From Bryobacteraceae bacterium (lineage in GTDB: Bacteria > Acidobacteriota > Terriglobia > Bryobacterales > Bryobacteraceae): a DNA stretch of 53,134 bases. Both the position numbers and the translations under genes were made by a program. The stretch is from the NCBI GenBank assembly GCA_028275505.1, contig JAPWUP010000007.1:1-53134 (forward strand), in the 5' to 3' direction. Each line of letters begins with the position of its first letter. Position 1 is the stretch's first letter. This document shows positions 14,519-37,688 of this stretch, piece by piece. A model generated the notes under the pieces. It worked only from the letters and a program-made list of their open reading frames with translations, did not search any database and had not been told where the DNA came from.

Positions 14519-15931
14519 CTACGTCCAGACCGGGGATTCTGCCTGGATCTCCCGGTAAAGCGCGACGAGCCGCTCCCGCAGCGAGCGCAGCACGGGCGGG
14601 TTCTTCGCCGCGAGGTCCTTGCTTTCCGCGGGATCCTCGGCCAGGTTGTACAGCTCGAACTCCACCAGCCGGGCTTCTTTGATGAAGGGCATGTCCTGCT
14701 GCGGATCGAAAGCGCCGCCGGCAGCCCGAGGGGAGGCGCGATCGGGAATGCCGAGGATCTTCCACGGACCGTCGCGCAGGGCGGCTTTGGGACGGCTCAG
14801 CGCATTGTAATAGTGCCAGTACAGCGGAACCCGTCGTCTCACCTTCTTGCCTTCCAGCAAGGGGAGGATGTTGACCCCATCGAGGCGCGCGGGCGGCTGG
14901 GCGCCGGCAGCGGCGCAAAGCGTGGGCAGTACGTCCACGCCCGAGATCGGCTCGGAAATCGTGGCGCCGGCGCGGGCGCGTCCCGGCCAACGCAGAATCC
15001 CGGGCACCCGAATGCCTCCCTCGTACATATGAAGCTTCATGCCGCGGAAGGGGCCGGGTGAGCCATAGGAGCGCCACGCTCCCTTGTAGCGATTCAGCGT
15101 CTCCGGGCCGTTGTCGCTCGTGAAAAAGACCAGCGTGCGATCCCCGAGGCCGGACTCATCCAGGTAGCGAATCAGCCGGCCGAACTCGTGGTCCATCTGC
15201 GTGACGTTGGCGTAGTAAAGCGCCTCCCCCTTTTCGCGAACCGAAGGGTACAGGCGCAGGAACTCTTCATCGGCTGCGATCGGCTCGTGCGGCGCGTGGA
15301 AGCAAACGAAAAGGCAGAACGGCTGGCCGGCGGGCAAGCGTTTGAGCCACTCGATGGCTTCGCTGACGATCAGGGTGCTCGAATTGCCCTTCAGCGGACC
15401 GACGGGTTTGCCGTTGCGAACGAAGTTGACGGGGTCGGCGTGGCTGGGCGCGGCGTTGTTCTGGGTCGAAAACCAGTGGTCGAAGCCATGATCGGAGGGT
15501 TGCGGCTGTTCGGGCGAGTTGAACTTGCCGTTGCAGTGCCACTTGCCGGTATGGCAGGTGGCGTAGCCCAGGCGCTTGAGGATCTGGGCGAACGTGACCC
15601 GGTCGCGTCCCAGATGCATGGGATTGCCGGCGGGGATCCAGTTGTAGACGCCCACGCGATCCGGGATCAAGCCGGTCAGCATGGCGGCGCGCGAGGGCGA
15701 GCAAACGGGCGCGGCGGCGTAGCAATCCGTGAAGCGCACGCCCTGGGAAGCGAAGCGATCCAGGTGCGGGGTCTGGATACGGCGACTGCCGTAGCAGCCC
15801 AGATCCCCGTAGCCCAGATCGTCGCAGAGTACGATCACGAAATTGGGTCGCGGCGCAGAAGCTGAGACGGTTGCGGCAGCGAGGCCGCCCAGGAATTCGC
15901 GTCGGGTAAGAGAGGATCCCAGCACGCTCAT
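14519..15931 (-). CDS. Formylglycine-dependent sulfatase 1 (Tat-exported)
   Basis: A 470-residue type I sulfatase that cleaves sulfate esters, most likely from a glycan. The N-terminus SLTRREFLGGLAAATVSA is a twin-arginine signal. Metal ligands appear in LCDDLGYGDLG, and Cys77 in CSPSR is the residue converted to formylglycine. HTGKWH and FTSDNGPE are the other catalytic blocks. Cys-type sulfatases need a maturase (FGE or a radical-SAM enzyme), which is not in this window. The ATG at 15931 is preferred; an in-frame ATG at 15952 would add seven residues. It diverges from the Gfo/Idh gene with only 30 bases between, suggesting shared control. Confidence 0.94.
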   Translation of the reverse strand: MSVLGSSLTRREFLGGLAAATVSASAPRPNFVIVLCDDLGYGDLGCYGSRRIQTPHLDRFASQGVRFTDCYAAAPVCSPSRAAMLTGLIPDRVGVYNWIPAGNPMHLGRDRVTFAQILKRLGYATCHTGKWHCNGKFNSPEQPQPSDHGFDHWFSTQNNAAPSHADPVNFVRNGKPVGPLKGNSSTLIVSEAIEWLKRLPAGQPFCLFVCFHAPHEPIAADEEFLRLYPSVREKGEALYYANVTQMDHEFGRLIRYLDESGLGDRTLVFFTSDNGPETLNRYKGAWRSYGSPGPFRGMKLHMYEGGIRVPGILRWPGRARAGATISEPISGVDVLPTLCAAAGAQPPARLDGVNILPLLEGKKVRRRVPLYWHYYNALSRPKAALRDGPWKILGIPDRASPRAAGGAFDPQQDMPFIKEARLVEFELYNLAEDPAESKDLAAKNPPVLRSLRERLVALYREIQAESPVWT

Positions 15932-15961: not shown

Positions 15962-17074
15962 ATGGAGATCAACTTCGATCTGGAGCACGCGGCCAGGCCG
16001 CCGGCCCGCAGCGATTACGGCATCGGCATCGTGGGCGCAGGATTCGTCGTGCGTGACCTTCACCTGGCGGCGTATCGCAAGGCCGGCTACCGCGTGGTCG
16101 CGATCACCGACTTGGATCTGGAACGGGCGCGCGAGACGGCGCGCCTGCGCGGGGTTCCGAAAGTCTGCGCAACGCTGGAGGAACTGCTGGCGGATCCCGA
16201 AGTCGAGGTGCTGGACATCGCGGTGCCGCCAGACCAGCAACTGGCGGTGGTGCGCCAGGTGGTCGAACGCGGCCGCCGCATTCGCGGGATCCTGGCGCAG
16301 AAGCCGCTGGCGCTTCATTACGCCGAGGCCCTCGAAATCGTGGAGTGGTGCGAGCGCGCGGGCATCGTGCTGGCGGTCAATCAGAACATGCGCTGGGATC
16401 CTTCGATCCGCGCGTTGCGCACGTTGCTGGCCCGTGGCTGGCTGGGCGAGCCGGTGCTGGCCACCATCGAGATGCGTTCGCCGCGCAGGTACGCGGGCTG
16501 GAAGCGTCGCTCCGACCGGCTGACGCTGCCCGTGATGAGCATCCATCATCTGGATGCGTTCCGCTTCCTGTTCGGCGAACCGGAGAGCGTGTACGCCAGC
16601 GCGCGTACTGACCCGCGGGCGGATTTTGCCCACACCGACGGCATCGTACTGTACGTGCTGGAATACGCCAGCGGGCTGCGCGCGGCGGCCTGGGACGACG
16701 TATATGCCGGTCCCGTGCTGGAAGGCGCGGCGGCCGATAATTACGTGCGCTGGCGCGTGGAAGGGACCGAAGGCATGGCCCGCGGGGCCATCGGATGGCC
16801 GGCCTGGCCCAACGTCGTGCCCAGCACCATAGATTTCACCCTGCGGTCCCAACCCGGCGTCTGGTTCTCGCCACGCTGGCCGGAGGCCTGGTTCCCGGAC
16901 GCCTTCGCCGGAACCATGGGTGAACTGCTCGACAGCCTGGCCACCGGGCGCCAGCCCAGCATCCACGGACGCGATAACCTACGCACCATCGCCCTGGTGG
17001 AAGCCTGTTACCGTTCCATCGCCGAGCGTCGCGCAGTGCGAGTGGCCGAACTGACGGACGAGCTGCCCGTCTGA
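15962..17074 (+). CDS. Gfo/Idh/MocA family NAD(P)-dependent oxidoreductase 1
   Basis: A 370-residue dehydrogenase with an N-terminal Rossmann fold (IGIVGAGFVVRDLHL) and the family's lysine motif as AQKPLAL near 120, in place of the usual EKP. The C-terminal alpha/beta domain has MSIHHLDAFRFLFGEP, with the His expected near the substrate. Members oxidise or epimerise sugars and inositols; the substrate is not readable. The ATG at 15962 is preferred over the TTG at 15944. It begins a plus-strand run into the mutarotase-like, DUF1638 and methyltransferase-like genes with gaps of 16, 21 and -4 bases. It belongs with the sulfatase it diverges from. Confidence 0.92.
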   Translation: MEINFDLEHAARPPARSDYGIGIVGAGFVVRDLHLAAYRKAGYRVVAITDLDLERARETARLRGVPKVCATLEELLADPEVEVLDIAVPPDQQLAVVRQVVERGRRIRGILAQKPLALHYAEALEIVEWCERAGIVLAVNQNMRWDPSIRALRTLLARGWLGEPVLATIEMRSPRRYAGWKRRSDRLTLPVMSIHHLDAFRFLFGEPESVYASARTDPRADFAHTDGIVLYVLEYASGLRAAAWDDVYAGPVLEGAAADNYVRWRVEGTEGMARGAIGWPAWPNVVPSTIDFTLRSQPGVWFSPRWPEAWFPDAFAGTMGELLDSLATGRQPSIHGRDNLRTIALVEACYRSIAERRAVRVAELTDELPV

Positions 17075-17078
17075 AGGC

Positions 17079-17084
17079 TATACT
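17079..17084 (+). promoter_or_regulatory. -10 box giving a possible leaderless start
   Basis: TATACT ends six bases before the ATG at 17091, and no Shine-Dalgarno sequence lies in the 16-base gap. Transcription from this box would begin at about the start codon itself. No good -35 is visible. Confidence 0.35.
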
Positions 17085-17090
17085 GCTTCC

Positions 17091-17414
17091 ATGCGACGCT
17101 ACGGGATGGTTATCGGTCTGGATCCGGCGCGACTGGAAGAATACAAGGCCTGCCACGCCAACCCCTGGCCCGAAGTTCTCGAAATGATCCGCAAATGTAA
17201 CATCCGCAATTACTCGATTTTCTACAAAGACGGTTACCTGTTCAGCTATTTCGAGTACGTGGGCGAGGACTTCGAGGCCGACATGGCCCGGATGGCGGCC
17301 GATCCGAAAACGCAGGAATGGTGGGCTTACGTGAAGCCCATGCAAAGGCCTCTGGAAAGTCGCAAACCGGGCGAATGGTGGGCGGAAATGGAGGAAGTTT
17401 TTCACATGGACTGA
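17091..17414 (+). CDS. L-rhamnose mutarotase family protein
   Basis: A 107-residue dimeric alpha/beta-barrel protein of the RhaM (DUF718) family, which interconverts sugar anomers. His22 in CHANPWPEV sits exactly where the catalytic His22 of E. coli RhaM does. WWAYVKPMQ and the C-terminal EVFHMD also match the family. True rhamnose enzymes sit beside rhaBAD genes, which are absent, so the natural sugar may be another 6-deoxy or methylated sugar. It has no visible ribosome-binding site; see the -10 box at 17079. It lies between the Gfo/Idh dehydrogenase and the DUF1638/methyltransferase-like pair. Confidence 0.9.
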   Translation: MRRYGMVIGLDPARLEEYKACHANPWPEVLEMIRKCNIRNYSIFYKDGYLFSYFEYVGEDFEADMARMAADPKTQEWWAYVKPMQRPLESRKPGEWWAEMEEVFHMD

Positions 17415-17435
17415 AACCGCGACCTCCGAGCTACG

Positions 17436-18167
17436 ATGCGCCTGCGCCTGATCGGCTGCGAGATCCTGTACCGCGAACTGTGCTGGGCGGTGGCGCACTC
17501 GATCCATCAGGTGGACGTGGAGTTTCTGCCCAAGGGCCTCCACGATCTGGGCGCGGCGCCCATGCGCTCCCGCCTGCAAGAGGCGATTGACCGCACGGAT
17601 GCCTCGCGCTACGAGGCCGTGCTCCTCGGTTACGCGCTGTGCGGGATGGGCCTGGCCGGGTTGACGGCGCGCTCGCTGCCGCTCATCGTGCCTCGCGCTC
17701 ACGACTGCATCACGCTTTTTCTCGGTAGCCGCCGGCGCTACACGGATTACTTTCGCAGCCACCCTGGCACTTACTTCCTGACCACGGGATGGATCGAGCG
17801 CGGGCGCGATCTTCCCCAGCTTTCCATCCAGGAAAAACTCGGCCTGCGGCAAAGCTTCGAGGAGCTGGCGTCGCGCTACGGTGAAGACAACGCCCGTTAT
17901 TTGATGGAGGAGCTGGGCGGTTGGACGCGCCATTACCGCCGCATTGCCTTTATCGAAACGGGTCTGGAGCCGGACGGGCGCTTCGAGGAAGCCGCGCGGC
18001 GCGAAGCCGAGAGCCGGGGTTGGGAATTCGAGAAGCTCTCGGGCGATCTGAGCCTGGTCCGACGGCTAGTGGACGGGCCGTGGGACGAGGATTTCCTGCA
18101 AGTGCCGCCGGGCCACCGCATCGTGGCAACCTATGACGAGGACATCGTAGGAGTGGAGCCGTTATGA
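17436..18167 (+). CDS. DUF1638 domain protein
   Basis: A 243-residue cytosolic protein of the DUF1638 family, biochemically uncharacterised as far as I know. Candidate metal or cofactor residues stand out: Cys8 (IGCEIL), Cys69 (GYALCGMGL), and His89-Asp90-Cys91 (PRAHDC), followed by ITLFLGSRRRY and PGTYFLTTGW. Family members often lie next to corrinoid methyltransferases and MtaA/CmuA-type proteins. Here the stop overlaps the start of an MtaA-like gene by 4 bases (ATGA), so the two are probably made together. A role in handling a methyl group or corrinoid is inference from that pairing. Confidence 0.85.
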   Translation: MRLRLIGCEILYRELCWAVAHSIHQVDVEFLPKGLHDLGAAPMRSRLQEAIDRTDASRYEAVLLGYALCGMGLAGLTARSLPLIVPRAHDCITLFLGSRRRYTDYFRSHPGTYFLTTGWIERGRDLPQLSIQEKLGLRQSFEELASRYGEDNARYLMEELGGWTRHYRRIAFIETGLEPDGRFEEAARREAESRGWEFEKLSGDLSLVRRLVDGPWDEDFLQVPPGHRIVATYDEDIVGVEPL

Positions 18168-19195
18168 CGGGGCGTGAACGCATCCTGGCTCACCTGGCGG
18201 GCCAGCCCGTGGATCACCTGCCGCTGATGCCGATCACCATGATGTTTGCCGCCGATCTGGCGGGCGTACGCTACCGGGACTACGTCAGCGATCACCGCGT
18301 GCTGGCGGAGGCGCAGATCCGCGTAGCCGAAACATTCGGGTTCGATCATGTTTCGGTCATTTCGGATCCCGCGCGCGAAACCGCGGATCTGGGCGGGGCC
18401 ATCGAGTGGTTTGACGACCAGCCCCCCGCGATCGTCGAATCCCGCGCTTTGCTCACCGACAAACGCGCTCTGGCCCGCCTGCGCCTGCCCGATCCCTACG
18501 GCGGCGGCCGCATGACGGACCGCGTGCGCGGCGTGGCGTTGCTCAAAGAACGGATCGGGGCAGAAAAGCTCGTGGAGGGCTGGATCGAGGGGCCCTGTGC
18601 CATGGCCGCCGACCTGCGGGGGATCAACACGCTGATGCTCGACTTCCTGGATGACCCGGGCTTCGTGCGCGATCTGCTTGAATTCTGCGTGACGATGGAG
18701 TTGGAGTTCGCACGCGCCCAGTTCCAGGCTGGGGCCGACATCATGGGCGTGGGCGACGCGGCCGCCTCGCTGGTCGGTCCCAGGATCTACTACGAATTCG
18801 TCTGGCCGTACGAAAAGAAGCTGGTGGACGGCCTGCACGCCATGGGCGGGTTGGTGCGGCTCCACATCTGCGGGCGCACGCGCAAGCTGTTCGAAGGCAT
18901 GGGAAGGCTGGGCGCGGACATCGTGGACCTGGATTTCGTGGCGCCGGTGGAAGAGGCGCGTCGCGTGATGGGACCCGATCAGGTCCTGCTGGGCAACATC
19001 GAGCCGGTGGGCGTGCTGCGCAATGGCACGCCGGAAACCGTCTGGCAGGCTGTTGCTCGGTGTCACCGCGAAGCCGGACCCCGCTTCATCGTCGGTGCAG
19101 GCTGCGAGGTCGTGCGCGACACGCCGCACGAGAACATGCGCGCCATGACGCGCTACGCGCAGGAGCACCGGCCGGAGGATCACTCCACGGCGTAA
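18164..19195 (+). CDS. Uroporphyrinogen-decarboxylase-family (MtaA/CmuA-like) zinc methyltransferase
   Basis: A 343-residue TIM barrel of the UroD superfamily. It has the zinc-ligand set of methylcobamide methyltransferases rather than a haem enzyme's substrate arginines: His234-x-Cys236-Gly (RLHICGRT) and Cys314 (VGAGCEV) before PHENMRAM. Relatives move a methyl group between a corrinoid protein and a thiol acceptor such as coenzyme M or tetrahydrofolate. No corrinoid-binding protein or first methyltransferase is encoded nearby. It overlaps the DUF1638 gene by 4 bases. Its last 16 bases are shared with the convergent DUF4838 gene. Members of this family are numerous and mostly uncharacterised in Acidobacteriota and Planctomycetes. 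Confidence 0.87.
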   Translation: MTGRERILAHLAGQPVDHLPLMPITMMFAADLAGVRYRDYVSDHRVLAEAQIRVAETFGFDHVSVISDPARETADLGGAIEWFDDQPPAIVESRALLTDKRALARLRLPDPYGGGRMTDRVRGVALLKERIGAEKLVEGWIEGPCAMAADLRGINTLMLDFLDDPGFVRDLLEFCVTMELEFARAQFQAGADIMGVGDAAASLVGPRIYYEFVWPYEKKLVDGLHAMGGLVRLHICGRTRKLFEGMGRLGADIVDLDFVAPVEEARRVMGPDQVLLGNIEPVGVLRNGTPETVWQAVARCHREAGPRFIVGAGCEVVRDTPHENMRAMTRYAQEHRPEDHSTA

Positions 19196-21696
19196 ACCGC
19201 TTCCAGCCGCAGGCCTTCACGCGGCTTGAGGGTGCGTTCGGGAGTCCACAAGACCAGACCGATGCGGTTTTCGCCTTGTACGGTCCAGTCCAGCACGGCC
19301 CGCTGCACCTGCGAGTTCGGGAAGCGGTTCAGCAGTACGGGGCCGCCGGCGCGGTGAAACGCGCGCCATGCGCTGTCAGGGCAGGCGCCGCCATCCAGCG
19401 GCTCCCCGCGGCGCGTCTCCTCGCCGGGCTCGAACAGCGTGCGATTGACCGCCCGGCCGTCCCGGCTGCGGTAACTCACGGCCAGGCGCGGGTCGGTGAC
19501 GGGTCCGGCCGCATAATCGGCCCGGCTCTGCAAGGCGACCTGGACGGGCGCCGATCCCTCGTTGACGACCTCGGTCTGCGTCCGCACCTCGCCGCCGGAC
19601 AGACTGATGAGGCGCACGAGCTTCAATCCGTTGGCGCAGGCGCCGCCCATTTCTAACCGGTCCGGGGCAGCGTTCCACACTTGCCAGTCCACGTCCCACG
19701 CGCGGGCCTGATAGTCGGGATGCACCGAGACGAAGAGGCCGCTGACGTTCGGATAGCCGGCATCGCCCGGGTCGGGCCGTCGAAGCACATCCGTGCCGCT
19801 GGGCTTGTGCACGAGCTGCACGATGCGCCCGTTCAGGCCGGGCACTACCGCCACGCGCAGCGTCTCGTTTTCCAGCGTGAAGACGCCGTAACGGCGCAGG
19901 CGGCGCTCGAACTCCTTTTCGTCGTACTCCAGACCGCGTCCTTCGTGCAATTGCTGGATGCCGAAGCTGCGGACTTCGCGGAGAAACTCGGGGAAGCGGC
20001 TGGTCACTTCAGTCCGCGCAGCCGGCGGCATCTGATACCAGCCGTCGCGGATCTCAAACGCCATCGAGCGCAGCAGCTCCACGTAGTCAATGGAAAGACG
20101 CACCTTGCGCACGCGGCGGCGCACGGCGTCGTTTTCAGCTTCCTGTTCGGCGCGCGTGAGCAGCTCGCGGGCGCGCTGGAGGAAATCGGCCTCGAGATAC
20201 GGAGCGGTCGGACCCTGGAAAATCCACAAATGATGACCGCGGCCCTGGGGCGGGAAGCGGACCTGCCGGTGCAGGAGCTCGAGATACTCGGCGATGCGCG
20301 GCGCCGCGCGGCCATAAACTCCTTCGATGAACTCCTGCATGGCCTGCCGAGCGTCCGTCTTGACGTCCCACATCAGCCGCGCCATAACATAGGAGCGCAG
20401 CTCGGCCATTTCCCCGCCTCCACCCGGAGCGTAGTCTCCTTCCATGAACAAGCCCACCACGCCGTGCCGGTGATACATCGGGATATCGGCGATCAGCTCG
20501 TCGAAGTCGGGGAACGGCATCAGGTAGTGGGCGAAGTTCGTGTTGTAGTGCCAGATGTAGAGCTGGTTGGTGATCTGGGACCAGGCCTTCAGCCGCCTCA
20601 TGAAATACGCGTTGCGGTCGCAGCTCTCGTAAGGATGCGCCTCGCAGGCCCGGATGGGACACAGGCGCACGCGCACGTTACGGCGCGGACGCACACGCGC
20701 GGGAGGCTCCTCGGTGTACCAGTAGGCCAGCGTGTCAATGAGCTTGTCGGGATAGTGCTTTTCCACTTCGGCCGCCAGAGCGTTGACAAAGCGCAGCACG
20801 GGACCGGAGTGAGCCCCGCCCTCCTCTTCTTCCACGCGGCGGCAGTTGTCGCACTCACACCAGCCCGTCCAGTCGTTCTGCGAGACCGAGAAGATGGTGG
20901 CCTCGGGATGCTCGCGGATCCAGCGCAGCACGGTCTCGGTAGCCAGACGCAGCACGTCGGGATTGGTCAGGCAGAGCTGGCCTCGCTCGGCGCGCCGCTT
21001 GCCGGCAATGAGCGAGTAATATTCGGGGTGATCGCGGAAGTACTTCTCGGGTGGTAGTAACTCGTAGAAAGTATGCACGAACGGGTAATACTGAACCTTG
21101 CCGCCGGTGCTCTCATCGAGCTTGAGAAAATGCCCGTTCATGCGGTTGCGCGCCGCCCAATCCTTGTCGAAAGCCTCATAAAAGAAAGGCTCGCGATACT
21201 CGAAAGAAGGCTTTCCGATCTCGTTGAGCGGCGGAATGCGCACGGTGGGTAACTTCGGAATCCGACTTACTTCGGCGGTAAACCAGCGGCATCCGAGTCT
21301 TTCCAGAAAAACGTAGACGCCGTACATGGTGCCGCGCTGCCGGCCGCCGGCGATGATCAGGTTGCGCCCGGCGGTGCGGAGCAGAAAGCCTTCGGGTCCC
21401 AGCGCGTCCCAGTTGGCGCGCACGCCCAGCCGGTCGAGCGCGCGACTGCGACCGACCAGGATCCACGGGCCGCGAGGGCGCGCCTGGTCCGTGACGATCG
21501 GAAGCCGGGCGCCGGACATTTCCTCCAGGAAGCGTTGCAGCTCCTGGGCGCCGCGTCGCTCCGAGGGCGAGGCGTCCTGCGCCACGACGATCGTGTAAGG
21601 AGAACGTCCTTTTTCGATGAGCGTCAGGCCGGCGGGCGCGGCCAGCGCCGTCGCAGCCAACGGCAACAGGAACGCACAACGAATTCCCACAGTCAT
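19180..21696 (-). CDS. Secreted DUF4838 protein (alpha-glucuronidase-like fold)
   Basis: An 838-residue exported protein. The signal peptide is MTVGIRCAFLLPLAATALAAPAG. Residues of about 28-150 resemble the N-terminal domain of GH67-type glycosidases (EMSGARLPIVTD, then GTMYGVYVFLERLGCRWFT). The central DUF4838 barrel has WTGWCECDNCRRVEEEEGG, with a CxCxxC cluster that may bind a metal, and LIDTLAYWYTEEPP. The last 200 residues are beta-rich, as in carbohydrate-binding or transglutaminase-like modules. The family is thought to act on polysaccharides, but activity is unproven. It converges with the MtaA-like gene and shares 16 bases with it. Upstream, 13 bases separate it from the barrel-protein gene, so they may be co-transcribed. 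Confidence 0.85.
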   Translation of the reverse strand: MTVGIRCAFLLPLAATALAAPAGLTLIEKGRSPYTIVVAQDASPSERRGAQELQRFLEEMSGARLPIVTDQARPRGPWILVGRSRALDRLGVRANWDALGPEGFLLRTAGRNLIIAGGRQRGTMYGVYVFLERLGCRWFTAEVSRIPKLPTVRIPPLNEIGKPSFEYREPFFYEAFDKDWAARNRMNGHFLKLDESTGGKVQYYPFVHTFYELLPPEKYFRDHPEYYSLIAGKRRAERGQLCLTNPDVLRLATETVLRWIREHPEATIFSVSQNDWTGWCECDNCRRVEEEEGGAHSGPVLRFVNALAAEVEKHYPDKLIDTLAYWYTEEPPARVRPRRNVRVRLCPIRACEAHPYESCDRNAYFMRRLKAWSQITNQLYIWHYNTNFAHYLMPFPDFDELIADIPMYHRHGVVGLFMEGDYAPGGGGEMAELRSYVMARLMWDVKTDARQAMQEFIEGVYGRAAPRIAEYLELLHRQVRFPPQGRGHHLWIFQGPTAPYLEADFLQRARELLTRAEQEAENDAVRRRVRKVRLSIDYVELLRSMAFEIRDGWYQMPPAARTEVTSRFPEFLREVRSFGIQQLHEGRGLEYDEKEFERRLRRYGVFTLENETLRVAVVPGLNGRIVQLVHKPSGTDVLRRPDPGDAGYPNVSGLFVSVHPDYQARAWDVDWQVWNAAPDRLEMGGACANGLKLVRLISLSGGEVRTQTEVVNEGSAPVQVALQSRADYAAGPVTDPRLAVSYRSRDGRAVNRTLFEPGEETRRGEPLDGGACPDSAWRAFHRAGGPVLLNRFPNSQVQRAVLDWTVQGENRIGLVLWTPERTLKPREGLRLEAVYAVE

Positions 21697-22416: not shown

Positions 22417-23949
22417 TCACAACTCGAATCGGATCCCTTGCGCCAAAGGCAATTCGGAAGACCAGTTGATAGTGACCGTCTGGCGGCGCATGTACGCTTT
22501 CCAGGCGTCGCTGCCCGCCTCGCGCCCGCCTCCCGTGTCCTTCTCGCCGCCGAAGGCGCCGCCGATTTCCGCGCCGCTGGTGCCGATGTTGACGTTGGCG
22601 ATGCCGCAATCGCTGCCGCAGGGGCTCAGGAAGGTCTCCGCCGCAATCAAGTTGCGCGTGAAGATAGCGGAAGAAAGGCCCTGCGGCACATCGTTGTGCC
22701 AGCGAATGGCTTGCTCCAGGTCGTCGAATTCGATCAGATAGAGCACGGGCGCGAACAGTTCCTCGCGCAGGACGGGCATGTCGGGCCGGGCGCGGATGAG
22801 CGCGGGCTCCACGTAGCAACCGCCGGGCAAATCCAGCGGACGACCGCCGCAGAGCAGCTCGCCGCCTTCACCCCGGGCGCGCTCGATGCCCGCCATCATG
22901 TCGGCCACGGCCTGCCGGTTGACCAGCGGGCCCATCAGCGTCCTCTCATCCAGCGCGTGCCCGATGCGGATCTGGCGGTAAGCCGCGATGAGCGATTCCG
23001 TGAAACGGGCAGCGATGCTACGTTGCAGGAACAGCCGTCGGATCGTGGTGCAACGCTGGCCCGCCGTGCCGATGGCGCCGAACAGGACGGCGCGCAAAGC
23101 CAGATCCAGATCCGCATCTTCCATGATGATGACGCCATTGTTGCCGCCCAGCTCCAGAATCGTGCGACCGAGCCGCCGTCCCACCACTTCCGCCACGCGT
23201 CGCCCCATGGCGCAGGAGCCGGTGGCGCTGATGAGCGGGATGCGGCGGTCGGCGAGCAGGCGCTCCCCCACTTCGCTGCCGCGCCCGATGACGAGATTGA
23301 ACACGCCCAGCCAGCCGTTGCGTTCGAGCACGCGGTTGACGATCTTCTGCACAGCGATGGCAGTGAGCGGGGTTTCCGAGGAAGGCTTCCAGACGACACA
23401 ATCGCCGCAAACCGCAGCGATCAGGGCGTTCCAAGCCCACACCGCCACCGGAAAGTTGAACGCGGTGATCACGCCCACCACTCCCAGCGGATGCCATTGC
23501 TCGTACATGCGATGGCGCGGGCGTTCGCTGGTCATGGTGACGCCGTAGAGCTGCCGCGAAAGGCCCACCGCGAAGTCGGCCATGTCAATCATCTCCTGGA
23601 CCTCGCCGCGGCCCTCGGCCAGGATCTTGCCCATCTCGAGGCTGACCAGCGCTCCCAGATCGTCCTTGGCCCGGCGCAGCTCATCGCCGATCTGGCGCAC
23701 GATTTCGCCTCGTTTGGGCGCCGGGAACATGCGCCAGCGCTCGAAGACCTCAACCGCCGAAGCCACCACCCGCTCGTAATCCTCGGCCGAGGCCATCCTC
23801 ACGGCGGCGATCGGAGAGCCGTCATTGGGGCTGTAAGAGATCAGTTCGCCGCCGGCGGGTTGCTCGATCCACGGGCCGTAACAGGCGCCGGAATTGACGG
23901 GCTCGATCCCCAGGCGGGCCAGGATCTCGCTTGCCGGAAGGATTGCCAT
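22417..23949 (-). CDS. ALDH7-family aldehyde dehydrogenase (piperideine-6-carboxylate dehydrogenase type)
   Basis: A 510-residue NAD-dependent aldehyde dehydrogenase. The catalytic Cys300 is in GTAGQRCTT, the general base Glu266 in LELGGNN, and Lys188 in VWKPSSETP. The C-terminus, with GGEKDTGGGREAGSD followed by WKAYMRRQTVTIN, is diagnostic for ALDH7 (antiquitin/AmaB), which oxidises alpha-aminoadipate semialdehyde in lysine breakdown. The gene directly upstream encodes a class-III aminotransferase that could make that semialdehyde, 33 bases away. Cytosolic. The substrate is inferred from family plus neighbour. Confidence 0.93.
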   Translation of the reverse strand: MAILPASEILARLGIEPVNSGACYGPWIEQPAGGELISYSPNDGSPIAAVRMASAEDYERVVASAVEVFERWRMFPAPKRGEIVRQIGDELRRAKDDLGALVSLEMGKILAEGRGEVQEMIDMADFAVGLSRQLYGVTMTSERPRHRMYEQWHPLGVVGVITAFNFPVAVWAWNALIAAVCGDCVVWKPSSETPLTAIAVQKIVNRVLERNGWLGVFNLVIGRGSEVGERLLADRRIPLISATGSCAMGRRVAEVVGRRLGRTILELGGNNGVIIMEDADLDLALRAVLFGAIGTAGQRCTTIRRLFLQRSIAARFTESLIAAYRQIRIGHALDERTLMGPLVNRQAVADMMAGIERARGEGGELLCGGRPLDLPGGCYVEPALIRARPDMPVLREELFAPVLYLIEFDDLEQAIRWHNDVPQGLSSAIFTRNLIAAETFLSPCGSDCGIANVNIGTSGAEIGGAFGGEKDTGGGREAGSDAWKAYMRRQTVTINWSSELPLAQGIRFEL

Positions 23950-23982
23950 GCGCGCCTCCCGCCCTATGGTATTCCAGGCGGC

Positions 23983-25215
23983 TCAGGCGCTGTCGGGCGG
24001 GTACTTGACCTTCTTGAAGACCTTGGTCAGGATCTTGATGGCGCGGTCCACTTCGGGATCGGTGATGATGTAGGGCGGCAGAAGGCGGATCACGTTCTCG
24101 CTGGTGCAATTGATCAGCAGGCCTTCGGCGAGGGCGTCTTCCACGATGCTCTTGCCAGGCAGGTCGAGCTCGATGCCGATCATCAGGCCGAAGCCGCGGA
24201 CTTCCCGGATGAAGGGGAAGTGGCGGGCCATTTCGGTGAGCTGGACGCGGAAGGCGCTGCCAGTCTGGTGAATGGCAGGCAGCAGCTCGGGGAGAATGTC
24301 CAGGAACTCCAGCGCGACGCGGCAAGCCAGCGCCCCGCCGCCGAAAGTGGAGCCGTGCATGCCGGGACCGAGCGCAGCGGCGGCCTTGTCGTTGGCGATG
24401 ATGGCGCCGAGAGGAAGGCCGCAGGCCAACGGCTTGGCCACCACGGTGACGTCAGGCAGCACGGGCGGTTCGGCAAGCTGGTAAGCGAAGTACCGGCCGG
24501 TGCGCCCCAGGCCGCACTGGATTTCGTCGAAGATCAGCAGCGCATCGTGCTGATCGGCCAGTTCGCGCGCGCGGCGGGCGAAGTTCACGTCCACAGGATG
24601 GATGCCGCCCTCGCCCTGGATCCATTCCAGCACGATGGCAGCCGTTTGCGGGCCGACGGCTTGTTCCAAAGCCGTCACGTCATTGCGGGGGACGAAACGG
24701 ACGCCAGGCAGCAGCGGTTCGAAGTCCAGGCGATACTTCGGCTGGCCGGTGATCGAAAGAGCGCCAAAACTCCGCCCGTGGAAGGAGTTTTCCAAGGCGA
24801 CGATTTCGTATTTTTCGGGACTGCGGCGGCGTCCATAAGACCGGGCGATCTTGAGGGCGCCTTCTACAGCCTCGGTGCCCGAGTTGCTGAAAAAGCAGCG
24901 CTGCAAACCGCTGATCTCGGCGAGCCGGCGCGCCAGAGGGGCCTGGTAGTCGTGGTAATAGAGGTTCGAACAGTGGATCAGCAGGCCTGCCTGTTCCCGG
25001 ATCACGCGCAGGATCCGGGGATGGGCGTGGCCCAGCGCGTTAACCCCGATGCCGGCGATCAGGTCCAGGTAGCGCTTGCCCGCGGCGTCGTACAGCCAGC
25101 AACCTTTGCCGCGGCGCACCACCAGAGGGAACCTGCGGTAGGTCTGGATGAGGTACTGCTGCTCGATCTCCTGGAGAGATTGCGCATCGGCTACAGGACC
25201 GCACGAAACCGACAT
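23983..25215 (-). CDS. Class III PLP aminotransferase (ArgD / lysine aminotransferase-like)
   Basis: About 410 residues. It shows ALGHAHP, the phosphate-contacting NSGTEAVEGALK, FDEIQCGLGRTG with the PLP-binding Asp, and the Schiff-base Lys in VVAKPLACGLP. The closing block, NCTSENVIRLLPPYII, is shared with acetylornithine and lysine-epsilon aminotransferases. These move an omega-amino group to 2-oxoglutarate. With an ALDH7 gene next in the operon, lysine (or a derivative) is the most likely amino donor; ornithine or acetylornithine cannot be excluded. The ATG at 25215 is chosen over a GTG at 25242; the evidence for either start is modest. Confidence 0.88.
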   Translation of the reverse strand: MSVSCGPVADAQSLQEIEQQYLIQTYRRFPLVVRRGKGCWLYDAAGKRYLDLIAGIGVNALGHAHPRILRVIREQAGLLIHCSNLYYHDYQAPLARRLAEISGLQRCFFSNSGTEAVEGALKIARSYGRRRSPEKYEIVALENSFHGRSFGALSITGQPKYRLDFEPLLPGVRFVPRNDVTALEQAVGPQTAAIVLEWIQGEGGIHPVDVNFARRARELADQHDALLIFDEIQCGLGRTGRYFAYQLAEPPVLPDVTVVAKPLACGLPLGAIIANDKAAAALGPGMHGSTFGGGALACRVALEFLDILPELLPAIHQTGSAFRVQLTEMARHFPFIREVRGFGLMIGIELDLPGKSIVEDALAEGLLINCTSENVIRLLPPYIITDPEVDRAIKILTKVFKKVKYPPDSA

Positions 25216-25287
25216 CTCTTCATGATATCCGACCGACCGCACCCGCTGCGGCTGTTGGCGACGAAGGGGGCGGCTGAATTAAGAAGG

Positions 25288-35654: not shown

Positions 35655-36782
35655 ATGACGGGAACTGTGGGTATCGGCATGATCGGCGCCAGGTTCATGG
35701 GCAAGGCGCATACCAACGCCTGGCGGCAGGCCTCGATCTTCTTCGATCCGCCCCTGAAAGCGCGCCTGCGCATCGTGTGCGCGCGCAGCCCGCGGGTGCA
35801 CGAGTTTGCGCGCCGGTGGGGCTGGGAAAAATCCACCACCGACTGGCGGGAAGTCATCGAAGACCCGGAAGTGCAAATCGTGGACATCTGCTCGCCCAAC
35901 AACACGCACCATGACATCGCCATTGCCGCCCTGGAAGCGGGCAAGGTCGTCTGCTGCGAAAAGCCGCTGGCCATGAACGGGGAAGAGGCCCAGCGCATGG
36001 TGGATGCGGCCCGCAAGAGCGGCAAACTGAACACGGTCTGGTTCAATTACCGCCGCGTGCCGGCTATCGCTTTGGCGCGGCAGCTCATCGAGGAAGGCCG
36101 CATCGGCCGCGTCTATCACTTCCGCGCGCTCTACCTTCAGGACTGGACCATGGATCCCTCGGTGCCGCTGGTCTGGCGCATGGACAAAGCGGTGGCCGGC
36201 TCCGGCGTCACCGGCGATCTGCACTCCCACATCGTGGACATCTCCAATTACCTGGCGGGCGAGATCGAATCGGTGGCCGGCGTCAGCCGGATCTTCGTGA
36301 GCGAGCGCGAGCGTCCGGAAGGCGGGCGGGCGCGCGTGGAGATCGAAGACGCCTCGATTTTCGTCTGCCAGTACGCCAACGGCGCCATCGGACACTTCGA
36401 AGCCACCCGGTTCGCCAACGGGCGCAAGAACGGCAACATCTTCGAGATCAACGGCGAGTATGGCAGCCTCTATTTCAACCTCGAAGACATGAGCCGCCTG
36501 TGGTATTTCGACTCGCGCGAGCCCAAATACATCCAGGGTTGGAAGCAGATTTCGGTCTGGGAAGAAGTGCATCCCTACATGAACCGCTGGTGGGTGCCCG
36601 GTTGCGCCATCGGCTACGAGCACACCTTCGCCAACCAGGCTGCCGACATTCTGTTCGCCCTGGCCGAGGGCAGGCCGGTGTCGCCCACGTTCGAAGACGG
36701 ATTGAAGTGCCAGCTCGTGCTGGATGCGGTATTGGAGGCCTGCCAGACAGGCCAGTGGGTCAAGGTCAAGAAGCCGGCCTGA
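35655..36782 (+). CDS. Gfo/Idh/MocA family oxidoreductase 2
   Basis: A 375-residue dehydrogenase with the Rossmann motif GIGMIGARFMGKAH, the canonical EKP lysine (CCEKPLAMNG) and a catalytic-region Asp/His pair in TGDLHSHIVDISNYL. The start at 35655 is an ATG with a GAAAGGACAAGG upstream; the frame open from 35598 is not needed. The mid-protein WFNYRRVPAIALA is shared by sugar dehydrogenases that pass a 3-keto sugar on for isomerisation or cleavage. The next gene, 12 bases on, encodes a TIM-barrel isomerase-like protein, a pairing common in Acidobacteriota and Planctomycetes. The substrate is unknown. Confidence 0.93.
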   Translation: MTGTVGIGMIGARFMGKAHTNAWRQASIFFDPPLKARLRIVCARSPRVHEFARRWGWEKSTTDWREVIEDPEVQIVDICSPNNTHHDIAIAALEAGKVVCCEKPLAMNGEEAQRMVDAARKSGKLNTVWFNYRRVPAIALARQLIEEGRIGRVYHFRALYLQDWTMDPSVPLVWRMDKAVAGSGVTGDLHSHIVDISNYLAGEIESVAGVSRIFVSERERPEGGRARVEIEDASIFVCQYANGAIGHFEATRFANGRKNGNIFEINGEYGSLYFNLEDMSRLWYFDSREPKYIQGWKQISVWEEVHPYMNRWWVPGCAIGYEHTFANQAADILFALAEGRPVSPTFEDGLKCQLVLDAVLEACQTGQWVKVKKPA

Positions 36783-36794
36783 GGAGGAAACGTC

Positions 36795-37688
36795 ATGAAG
36801 ATTTCCATCGGAAGCTGGGCCTTTGCCTGGGGCGAATATGCCAGCAATCCCGTGCCGTTCGATCGGGTGGTGCGGCGGCTGGCGGAGGTGGGCTATGACG
36901 GCGTGGAGATCTGCGGCTTCCCGCCGCACATCACCCTGGAAGCGTACCCGGACGCGGCATCGCGGCGCGCAGTGGTGCGCATGCTCGAGGATCTGAACCT
37001 GGGTGTCTCGGGCTACGCGGCCGATTTCACGTCCGTGAACCCGGTGGTCACGCAGAAACAAAAGTATCTTGATTTGTTCCGGCGCAACGTGGAGATGTGC
37101 GTGGATCTGGGCAGTCCCTCCATCCGCGTGGACACGGTGGCCGCGCCGGGCTCGATCCCGGACGCCGACTACGAGGCGGCCATGATGCGCGTGGCGGACA
37201 TCTGGCGCGAGGCTGCGGAGATCGCGCAGCAGGCCGGCGTACGGGTGGTCTGGGAATTCGAGCCCGGCTTCGCGTTCAACAAGCCCTCCGAGGTCGTGCG
37301 CCTGCACGACGCCGTCGGTCATCCCAACTTTAAGGTCCTGTTCGACACCTCCCACGCCTACATGTGTTCGGTGGTGGGGGCACGCCAGCACGGAGAAAAG
37401 GAGACGCTGCCGGGCGGGGTCGCCGAGTTCCTCGATCGTCTGGAAGGCCGGATCGGGCACATCCATCTGATTGACTCCGACGGCACGCTGCACGACGGGG
37501 AAACCAGCACGCACCGGCCTTTCGGTGAGGGCTTCATTGATTTCAAGGCCCTGGCGCCGAAGTTGCTGGCCGTCCCCGGCATCCAGTGGTGGTGCGTGGA
37601 CCTTTGCTTCTGGCCAGGCGCCTGGGAGCTGGTAGACACCAGCCGCCGGTTCGTGGCGGACCTGCTGGCGGGCGTGGGACAGGCGTAG
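36795..37688 (+). CDS. Sugar phosphate isomerase/epimerase-like TIM-barrel protein
   Basis: A 297-residue AP-endonuclease-2/xylose-isomerase-like TIM barrel with GGAGG just before the ATG. Likely metal ligands are Glu and His residues in VVWEFEPGFAF, DTSHAYM, GHIHLIDSDG and GEGFIDF. This family includes IolE/IolI, 3-keto-sugar epimerases and hydroxypyruvate isomerases. Its tight coupling to the Gfo/Idh gene (12 bases) suggests it works on that enzyme's keto-sugar product. Cytosolic: no signal peptide is seen, unlike some acidobacterial relatives with Tat signals. Confidence 0.92.
   Translation: MKISIGSWAFAWGEYASNPVPFDRVVRRLAEVGYDGVEICGFPPHITLEAYPDAASRRAVVRMLEDLNLGVSGYAADFTSVNPVVTQKQKYLDLFRRNVEMCVDLGSPSIRVDTVAAPGSIPDADYEAAMMRVADIWREAAEIAQQAGVRVVWEFEPGFAFNKPSEVVRLHDAVGHPNFKVLFDTSHAYMCSVVGARQHGEKETLPGGVAEFLDRLEGRIGHIHLIDSDGTLHDGETSTHRPFGEGFIDFKALAPKLLAVPGIQWWCVDLCFWPGAWELVDTSRRFVADLLAGVGQA

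Follow-up and report, generated by a model that had tools for sequence, protein, structure and literature searches.

A DUF1638/MtaA-like gene pair of a Bryobacteraceae genome probably belongs to a corrinoid methyl-transfer system with dispersed parts

In a 53,134-nucleotide stretch of a Bryobacteraceae draft genome (contig C190, hereafter the window), two forward-strand genes overlapping by 4 nt encode a DUF1638 protein of 243 aa (17436-18167) and an MtaA-like methyltransferase of the uroporphyrinogen decarboxylase (URO-D) family of 343 aa (18164-19195). We consider it very likely that this pair belongs to a B12-dependent corrinoid methyl-transfer system, the other parts of which lie elsewhere in the genome (4.66 Mb, 98.9% complete, 392 contigs, 3.4% contamination). 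The evidence, all read from sequence, consists of an operon conserved across phyla, the zinc ligands and predicted fold of the methyltransferase, gene co-occurrence, and orthologues of the missing parts on other contigs.

DUF1638 was present in 55 of 201 genomes (this one and 200 relatives), and loci were retrieved from approximately 50 relatives. The usual gene order is a first methyltransferase of the URO-D family (MT1, ~424 aa), a corrinoid protein (~212 aa), a homocysteine S-methyltransferase (~290 aa), DUF1638, the MtaA-like URO-D and a RACo/RamA-like activase, and many of the loci hold only part of this set. The families found beside DUF1638 are the corrinoid protein (PF02607 with PF02310), homocysteine S-methyltransferase (PF02574), RACo (PF14574, PF17651 and Fer2) and both URO-Ds. 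In a second set of 80 named loci from Acidobacteriota, Planctomycetota, Armatimonadota, Verrucomicrobiota, Chloroflexota, Omnitrophota and others, analysed with a stricter cut-off, at least one member of the corrinoid protein, homocysteine methyltransferase, RACo and MT1 set was beside DUF1638 in 51 loci, and within Acidobacteriota such parts were there in 30 of 33. Some of the named loci also encode a pterin-binding module or MtaB, a methyltransferase for methanol. The nearest named relative carrying the pair is the Bryobacteraceae metagenome-assembled genome (MAG) SKYB110, where DUF1638 is 81% identical. The initial annotation had the pair working without corrinoid partners, a view that is not supported: its orthologues occur in corrinoid operons of several phyla, and the partners are found elsewhere in this genome.

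One Chthonomonadales locus (L134:2-15649) combines MtaB, at least seven URO-D-like proteins, DUF1638, a homocysteine methyltransferase and RACo. A two-component system is often upstream of DUF1638 in Planctomycetota, and in several Pirellulales loci (L128:2384-4927, L154, L175, L177, L179 and L188) a histidine kinase and a response regulator directly precede it; this two-component pair is possibly a sensor for the methyl donor.

That no corrinoid protein is encoded nearby holds for the window, not for the genome, which has a corrinoid protein orthologue on contig C343 (73% to the operon version), a homocysteine methyltransferase orthologue on C307 (65%) and a RACo orthologue on C101 (55%), so that the parts of a split methionine synthase (corrinoid, homocysteine and RamA-like) are all present on separate contigs. 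Across the 201 genomes, in tests that ignore shared ancestry, the corrinoid protein occurred in 53/55 genomes with DUF1638 vs 7/146 without it (p 4e-38), RACo in 52/55 vs 33/146 (p 1e-21) and the MtaA-like gene in 43/55 vs 2/146 (p 3e-30). The three DUF1638 genomes lacking RACo are all incomplete (64-87%). Contig C109 encodes a full MetH with its own reactivation domain, and the pterin domain of this MetH is the sole pterin-binding module among the stretches retrieved from this genome.

The surroundings of these and related genes were also recorded. The corrinoid protein on C343 (L017:2719-5988) has a pectate-lyase-family gene on one side and a xylose-isomerase-like gene on the other; an alpha-L-fucosidase-family gene adjoins the dispersed homocysteine methyltransferase (L117:3248-6175). 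Among the 14 URO-D matches in this genome, the paralogues at L018:597-2718, L108:6317-8682 and L109:959-3659 adjoin carbohydrate genes (Gfo/Idh, alpha-L-fucosidase-family and altronate/galactarate dehydratase). A second corrinoid system on contig C8 (L016:8213-11703) comprises a corrinoid protein, two His-Cys-Cys URO-Ds and a protein weakly similar to the methionine synthase activation domain.

The MtaA-like protein (PF01208, E 6.9e-58) is predicted to have the MtaA fold and the His-Cys-Cys zinc triad of the soluble coenzyme M methyltransferase group (MtaA/MtbA/CmuA). The best structural match of its AlphaFold2 model (predicted local distance difference test score, pLDDT, 95.1) is M. mazei MtaA (PDB 4ay7; Z 41.0, 2.0 Å over 328 residues, 22% identity), URO-D enzymes matching less well (Z 35.6-37.9). 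The HxCG motif and later cysteine, previously proposed as zinc ligands, are His234-x-Cys236-Gly and Cys314 (codons near 18863-18871 and 19103-19105); they align with those of M. mazei MtaA, in an alignment that runs over the whole length, and are invariant in 29/29 and 31/31 aligned orthologues rather than lost in most of them. The earlier view of the pair as methyl-transfer proteins is supported, as is the conservation of the zinc ligands. The protein scored below the cut-offs of its best NCBIfam model, TIGR01463 (mtaA_cmuA; 174.2 bits vs 235.4), of MtaA_Meth (104.3 vs 400) and of MtbA (129.8 vs 600), and we therefore call it MtaA-like without assigning it as MtaA; coenzyme M is not expected in this host. 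Identity with the uroporphyrinogen decarboxylase HemE was rejected (65.7 bits vs the TIGR01464 cut-off of 302.95), and C121 carries the gene that is likely to encode HemE here. A rule described for the URO-D superfamily links His-Cys-Cys with sulfur or selenium chemistry, O-methyltransferases replacing one or both cysteines (PMC10418091). The operon MT1-type proteins have His-Cys-His or His-Asp-His at the zinc positions; in the window protein neither cysteine is replaced, unlike what is expected of a URO-D O-demethylase (first methyltransferase). Because its His-Cys-Cys site is of the sulfur/selenium type (PMC10418091), it is unlikely to be a sugar O-demethylase itself.

The DUF1638 protein matches PF07796 well above the gathering score (135.5 bits vs 27; E 2e-39) and is encoded by a single-copy gene. 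The cysteines and the His-Asp-Cys motif that had been pointed out in it (Cys8, Cys69 and His89-Asp90-Cys91), together with His36, are invariant in 71/71 DUF1638 sequences. Its AlphaFold2 model has a pLDDT of 90.7. No relatives were found in the PDB by sequence; Foldseek gave a best E of 0.011 with TM scores below 0.3, and a second fold search gave a best Z of 8.1, in a range common for that tool, to two-domain folds of the LacI/periplasmic-binding and Asp/Glu-racemase types. A search of plasmids returned one weak haloarchaeal match only. In Phaeobacter, DUF1638 mutants are rescued by methionine, as are mutants in a RamA-like gene and in the split methionine synthase; DUF1638 and the RamA-like gene share their distribution in alpha-proteobacteria, and DUF1638 was left with a genetic phenotype and no proposed function (PMC5764234). 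Both DUF1638 and RamA are more abundant in Ruegeria grown on N-osmolytes (PMC12478193). We infer that DUF1638 serves corrinoid upkeep, in agreement with the methionine rescue and the co-distribution with the RamA-like gene (PMC5764234).

The pair most likely serves thiol-side transfer and corrinoid upkeep. It is well established that methyl groups travel on corrinoid proteins and that RACo/RamA proteins use ATP to bring Co(II) back to Co(I). In the proposed mechanism a donor-specific URO-D MT1 (zinc site His-Cys-His or His-Asp-His) would methylate the Co(I) of the small corrinoid protein, and zinc thiolate-type enzymes, namely the MtaA-like protein and the homocysteine S-methyltransferase, would move the methyl group between corrinoid and sulfur, so that methionine or a methylthiol is formed; run in reverse, the transfer would take the methyl group from a methyl-sulfur or methyl-selenium compound. 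Oxidised corrinoid would be reduced by RACo using ATP, and DUF1638 may help to load, hold or reactivate the corrinoid. The placing of the MtaA-like protein on the thiol side, homocysteine as the acceptor, the direction of transfer, the donor and the role of DUF1638 are all putative.

The same zinc site is compatible with a different order of events, in which the MtaA-like protein acts first: as has been suggested for Mlp proteins, it would draw the methyl group from a methylated sulfur or selenium compound, for delivery to homocysteine. The invariance of His-Cys-Cys (31/31), its association with sulfur and selenium substrates and the selenide activity shown for an Mlp2 (PMC10418091) argue for this order, but His-Cys-Cys fits a thiol acceptor equally well and the families listed for the extra operon genes include none of sulfur or selenium salvage; we regard this order as rather unlikely.

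Within the window the pair follows two other forward-strand genes, in the arrangement reported by the initial annotation: a Gfo/Idh/MocA oxidoreductase gene (15962-17074), the first of the apparent transcript, and a gene for a 107-aa RhaM-fold, L-rhamnose mutarotase-like protein (17091-17414; PF05336, E 1.2e-35). The intergenic distances are 16 nt between Gfo/Idh and RhaM and 21 nt between RhaM and DUF1638; with the 4-nt overlap of the pair, this spacing would suit a single transcript. The RhaM-like protein scored 49.1 bits against a cut-off of 99.6 for the L-rhamnose mutarotase equivalog TIGR02625, so the label RhaM-like is the right one. A sulfatase gene (14519-15925, reverse strand) is divergent from Gfo/Idh, and a gene for a DUF4838 protein with a GH67 N-terminal-like domain (19180-21696, reverse strand) is convergent with the MtaA-like gene; both are context and not parts of the system. 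No S-adenosylmethionine or cobalamin riboswitch reached the gathering score in 14 sources (the window and near operons). Further along, an L-piperidine-6-carboxylate dehydrogenase (NF050084 above cut-off) adjoins an ArgD-family aminotransferase (22417-25242), which suggests lysine catabolism, and a second Gfo/Idh-like gene is followed by a xylose-isomerase-like gene (35655-37688; both named from the sequence start only).

Gfo, RhaM, sulfatase and DUF4838 genes are not conserved neighbours of DUF1638 in relatives' loci beyond this genus, to which the Gfo/sulfatase/DUF4838 context is confined, so the different neighbourhoods that were to count against the earlier sugar-cluster reading were largely what we found. 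The genus was compared through three species, this genome and its sisters G001 and G002. G001 has Gfo-DUF1638-MtaA without RhaM, and G002 has SMC-sulfatase-Gfo-MtaA-DUF4838, the stretch from Gfo to MtaA lacking both DUF1638 and RhaM; neither sister carries RhaM at this position. All three species retain the corrinoid protein and RACo, and the neighbours of the corrinoid gene are the same on either side in G000 and G002. From these shared blocks and neighbours and the retained partners, the operon broke up before the three species split, the pair now standing behind a Gfo/Idh gene, with DUF1638 open to loss. The break-up, the loss of DUF1638 in G002 and the surrounding sulfatase, Gfo/Idh, RhaM-like and DUF4838 genes could also mean that the pair is vestigial, or has moved into a sugar role that needs no corrinoid, as the initial annotation implied. 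We consider this very unlikely, since the ligands are kept, the pair is under purifying selection (ratio of non-synonymous to synonymous substitution rates, dN/dS, ~0.10 and 0.14), and the corrinoid protein and RACo persist throughout the genus.

Demethylation of sugars, the substrate first suggested, is unlikely for the MtaA-like protein with its sulfur/selenium-type site. It survives at the level of the system, not through the evidence first offered for it but through independent hints from Gfo/Idh and a sugar porter. In such a scheme, a narrower version of the corrinoid system favoured here and compatible with it, MT1 would remove the methyl group from an O-methylated sugar or uronate, the corrinoid protein would carry it, the MtaA-like protein and homocysteine methyltransferase would hand it on to a thiol, and the demethylated sugar would be processed by Gfo/Idh and its partners; the first suggestion of substrate is kept and corrinoid partners are added. 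The window Gfo/Idh has an orthologue (63%) directly after MT1-corrinoid in a G013 operon (MT1-corrinoid-Gfo-epimerase-GHL6-URO-D-GH2), and in G063 an orthologue stands between activase and MT1 (RACo-Gfo-epimerase-PhyH-MT1). Such corrinoid-system genes were beside 2 of 18 Gfo orthologues (rough chance ~0.016), but most of these orthologues sit with the epimerase and without a corrinoid gene, and this genus has no orthologue of that epimerase. Co-occurrence of Gfo with the corrinoid protein, which also favours the scheme, was weak (14/18 vs 26/60, p 0.015; genomes G000-G077, assumed to have been searched whole). At least two genera (g11 and g15) have a sugar porter gene within the DUF1638 operon, and the one porter compared with TIGR00879 scored above the cut-off; Sugar_tr accounts for 5 of 96 extra operon genes and does not appear in the families listed for 96 background genes. 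Most DUF1638 operons, however, have no sugar gene. The His-Cys-His or His-Asp-His sites of MT1 fit O-chemistry, but no methylated-sugar enzyme was identified, and nothing relevant was found in the literature on corrinoid-linked sugar demethylation or on Planctomycetes URO-D families with corrinoid. We regard this scheme, in which the system as a whole would act on a sugar, as a possible minority reading. Its extension to a corrinoid pathway found across phyla, in which methyl groups of O-methylated sugars or uronates reach homocysteine or a different thiol and DUF1638 is a novel protein of corrinoid maintenance beside RACo, is unlikely.

Several observations weigh against membership of the pair in a corrinoid system. 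In Planctomycetota only 10 of 30 loci have the extra parts beside DUF1638, the co-occurrence statistics are exposed to shared ancestry, and the DUF1638 fold has no trustworthy structural match. This genome has no clear MT1 orthologue (best matches 43%, over partial length, and 34%), and the stand-alone homocysteine methyltransferase orthologue of this MAG, an assembly with 3.4% contamination, was not found in G001 or G002. Because a complete, self-reactivating MetH is present, methionine synthesis alone is no reason to keep the dispersed set. Finally, G002 (96% complete) lost DUF1638 yet keeps the MtaA-like gene, the corrinoid protein and RACo, and DUF1638 is therefore not indispensable there.

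An operon that joins DUF1638, an MtaA-type zinc enzyme, homocysteine methyltransferase and RACo across phyla provides testable partners for DUF1638 and suggests that methyl transfer through corrinoid takes place in Acidobacteriota and Planctomycetota. It also illustrates how the loci of relatives can make sense of a pair that, within a single window, seems orphaned.

Compared with known systems, the window protein resembles M. mazei MtaA in fold and zinc ligands, and unlike it falls under the TIGR01463, MtaA and MtbA family cut-offs. Compared by description only, Type 1 mlp gene clusters (Kountz and Balskus, PMC10418091) likewise combine several URO-Ds, a corrinoid protein, a Ram/RACE activase and His-Cys-Cys zinc sites; neither a DUF nor a homocysteine methyltransferase is mentioned for them in the text of the paper, and their hosts are obligate anaerobes, mostly Firmicutes. 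In the window no such grouping with a corrinoid protein and activase is seen. Unlike the systems of Phaeobacter and Ruegeria, the operon described here has at least two URO-D methyltransferases (of His-Cys-Cys and His-Cys/Asp-His types), includes a pterin-binding module only in some Thermoguttaceae loci, and is scattered in this genus, where the host also has a full MetH. What is shared with these systems is the set of parts: as in the split B12-dependent methionine synthase of Phaeobacter inhibens (PMC5764234), a separate corrinoid protein, a homocysteine methyltransferase and a RACo/RamA-like activase go together with DUF1638, and the same parts are grouped in MtgBCDE with RamA and DUF1638 of Ruegeria pomeroyi (PMC12478193).

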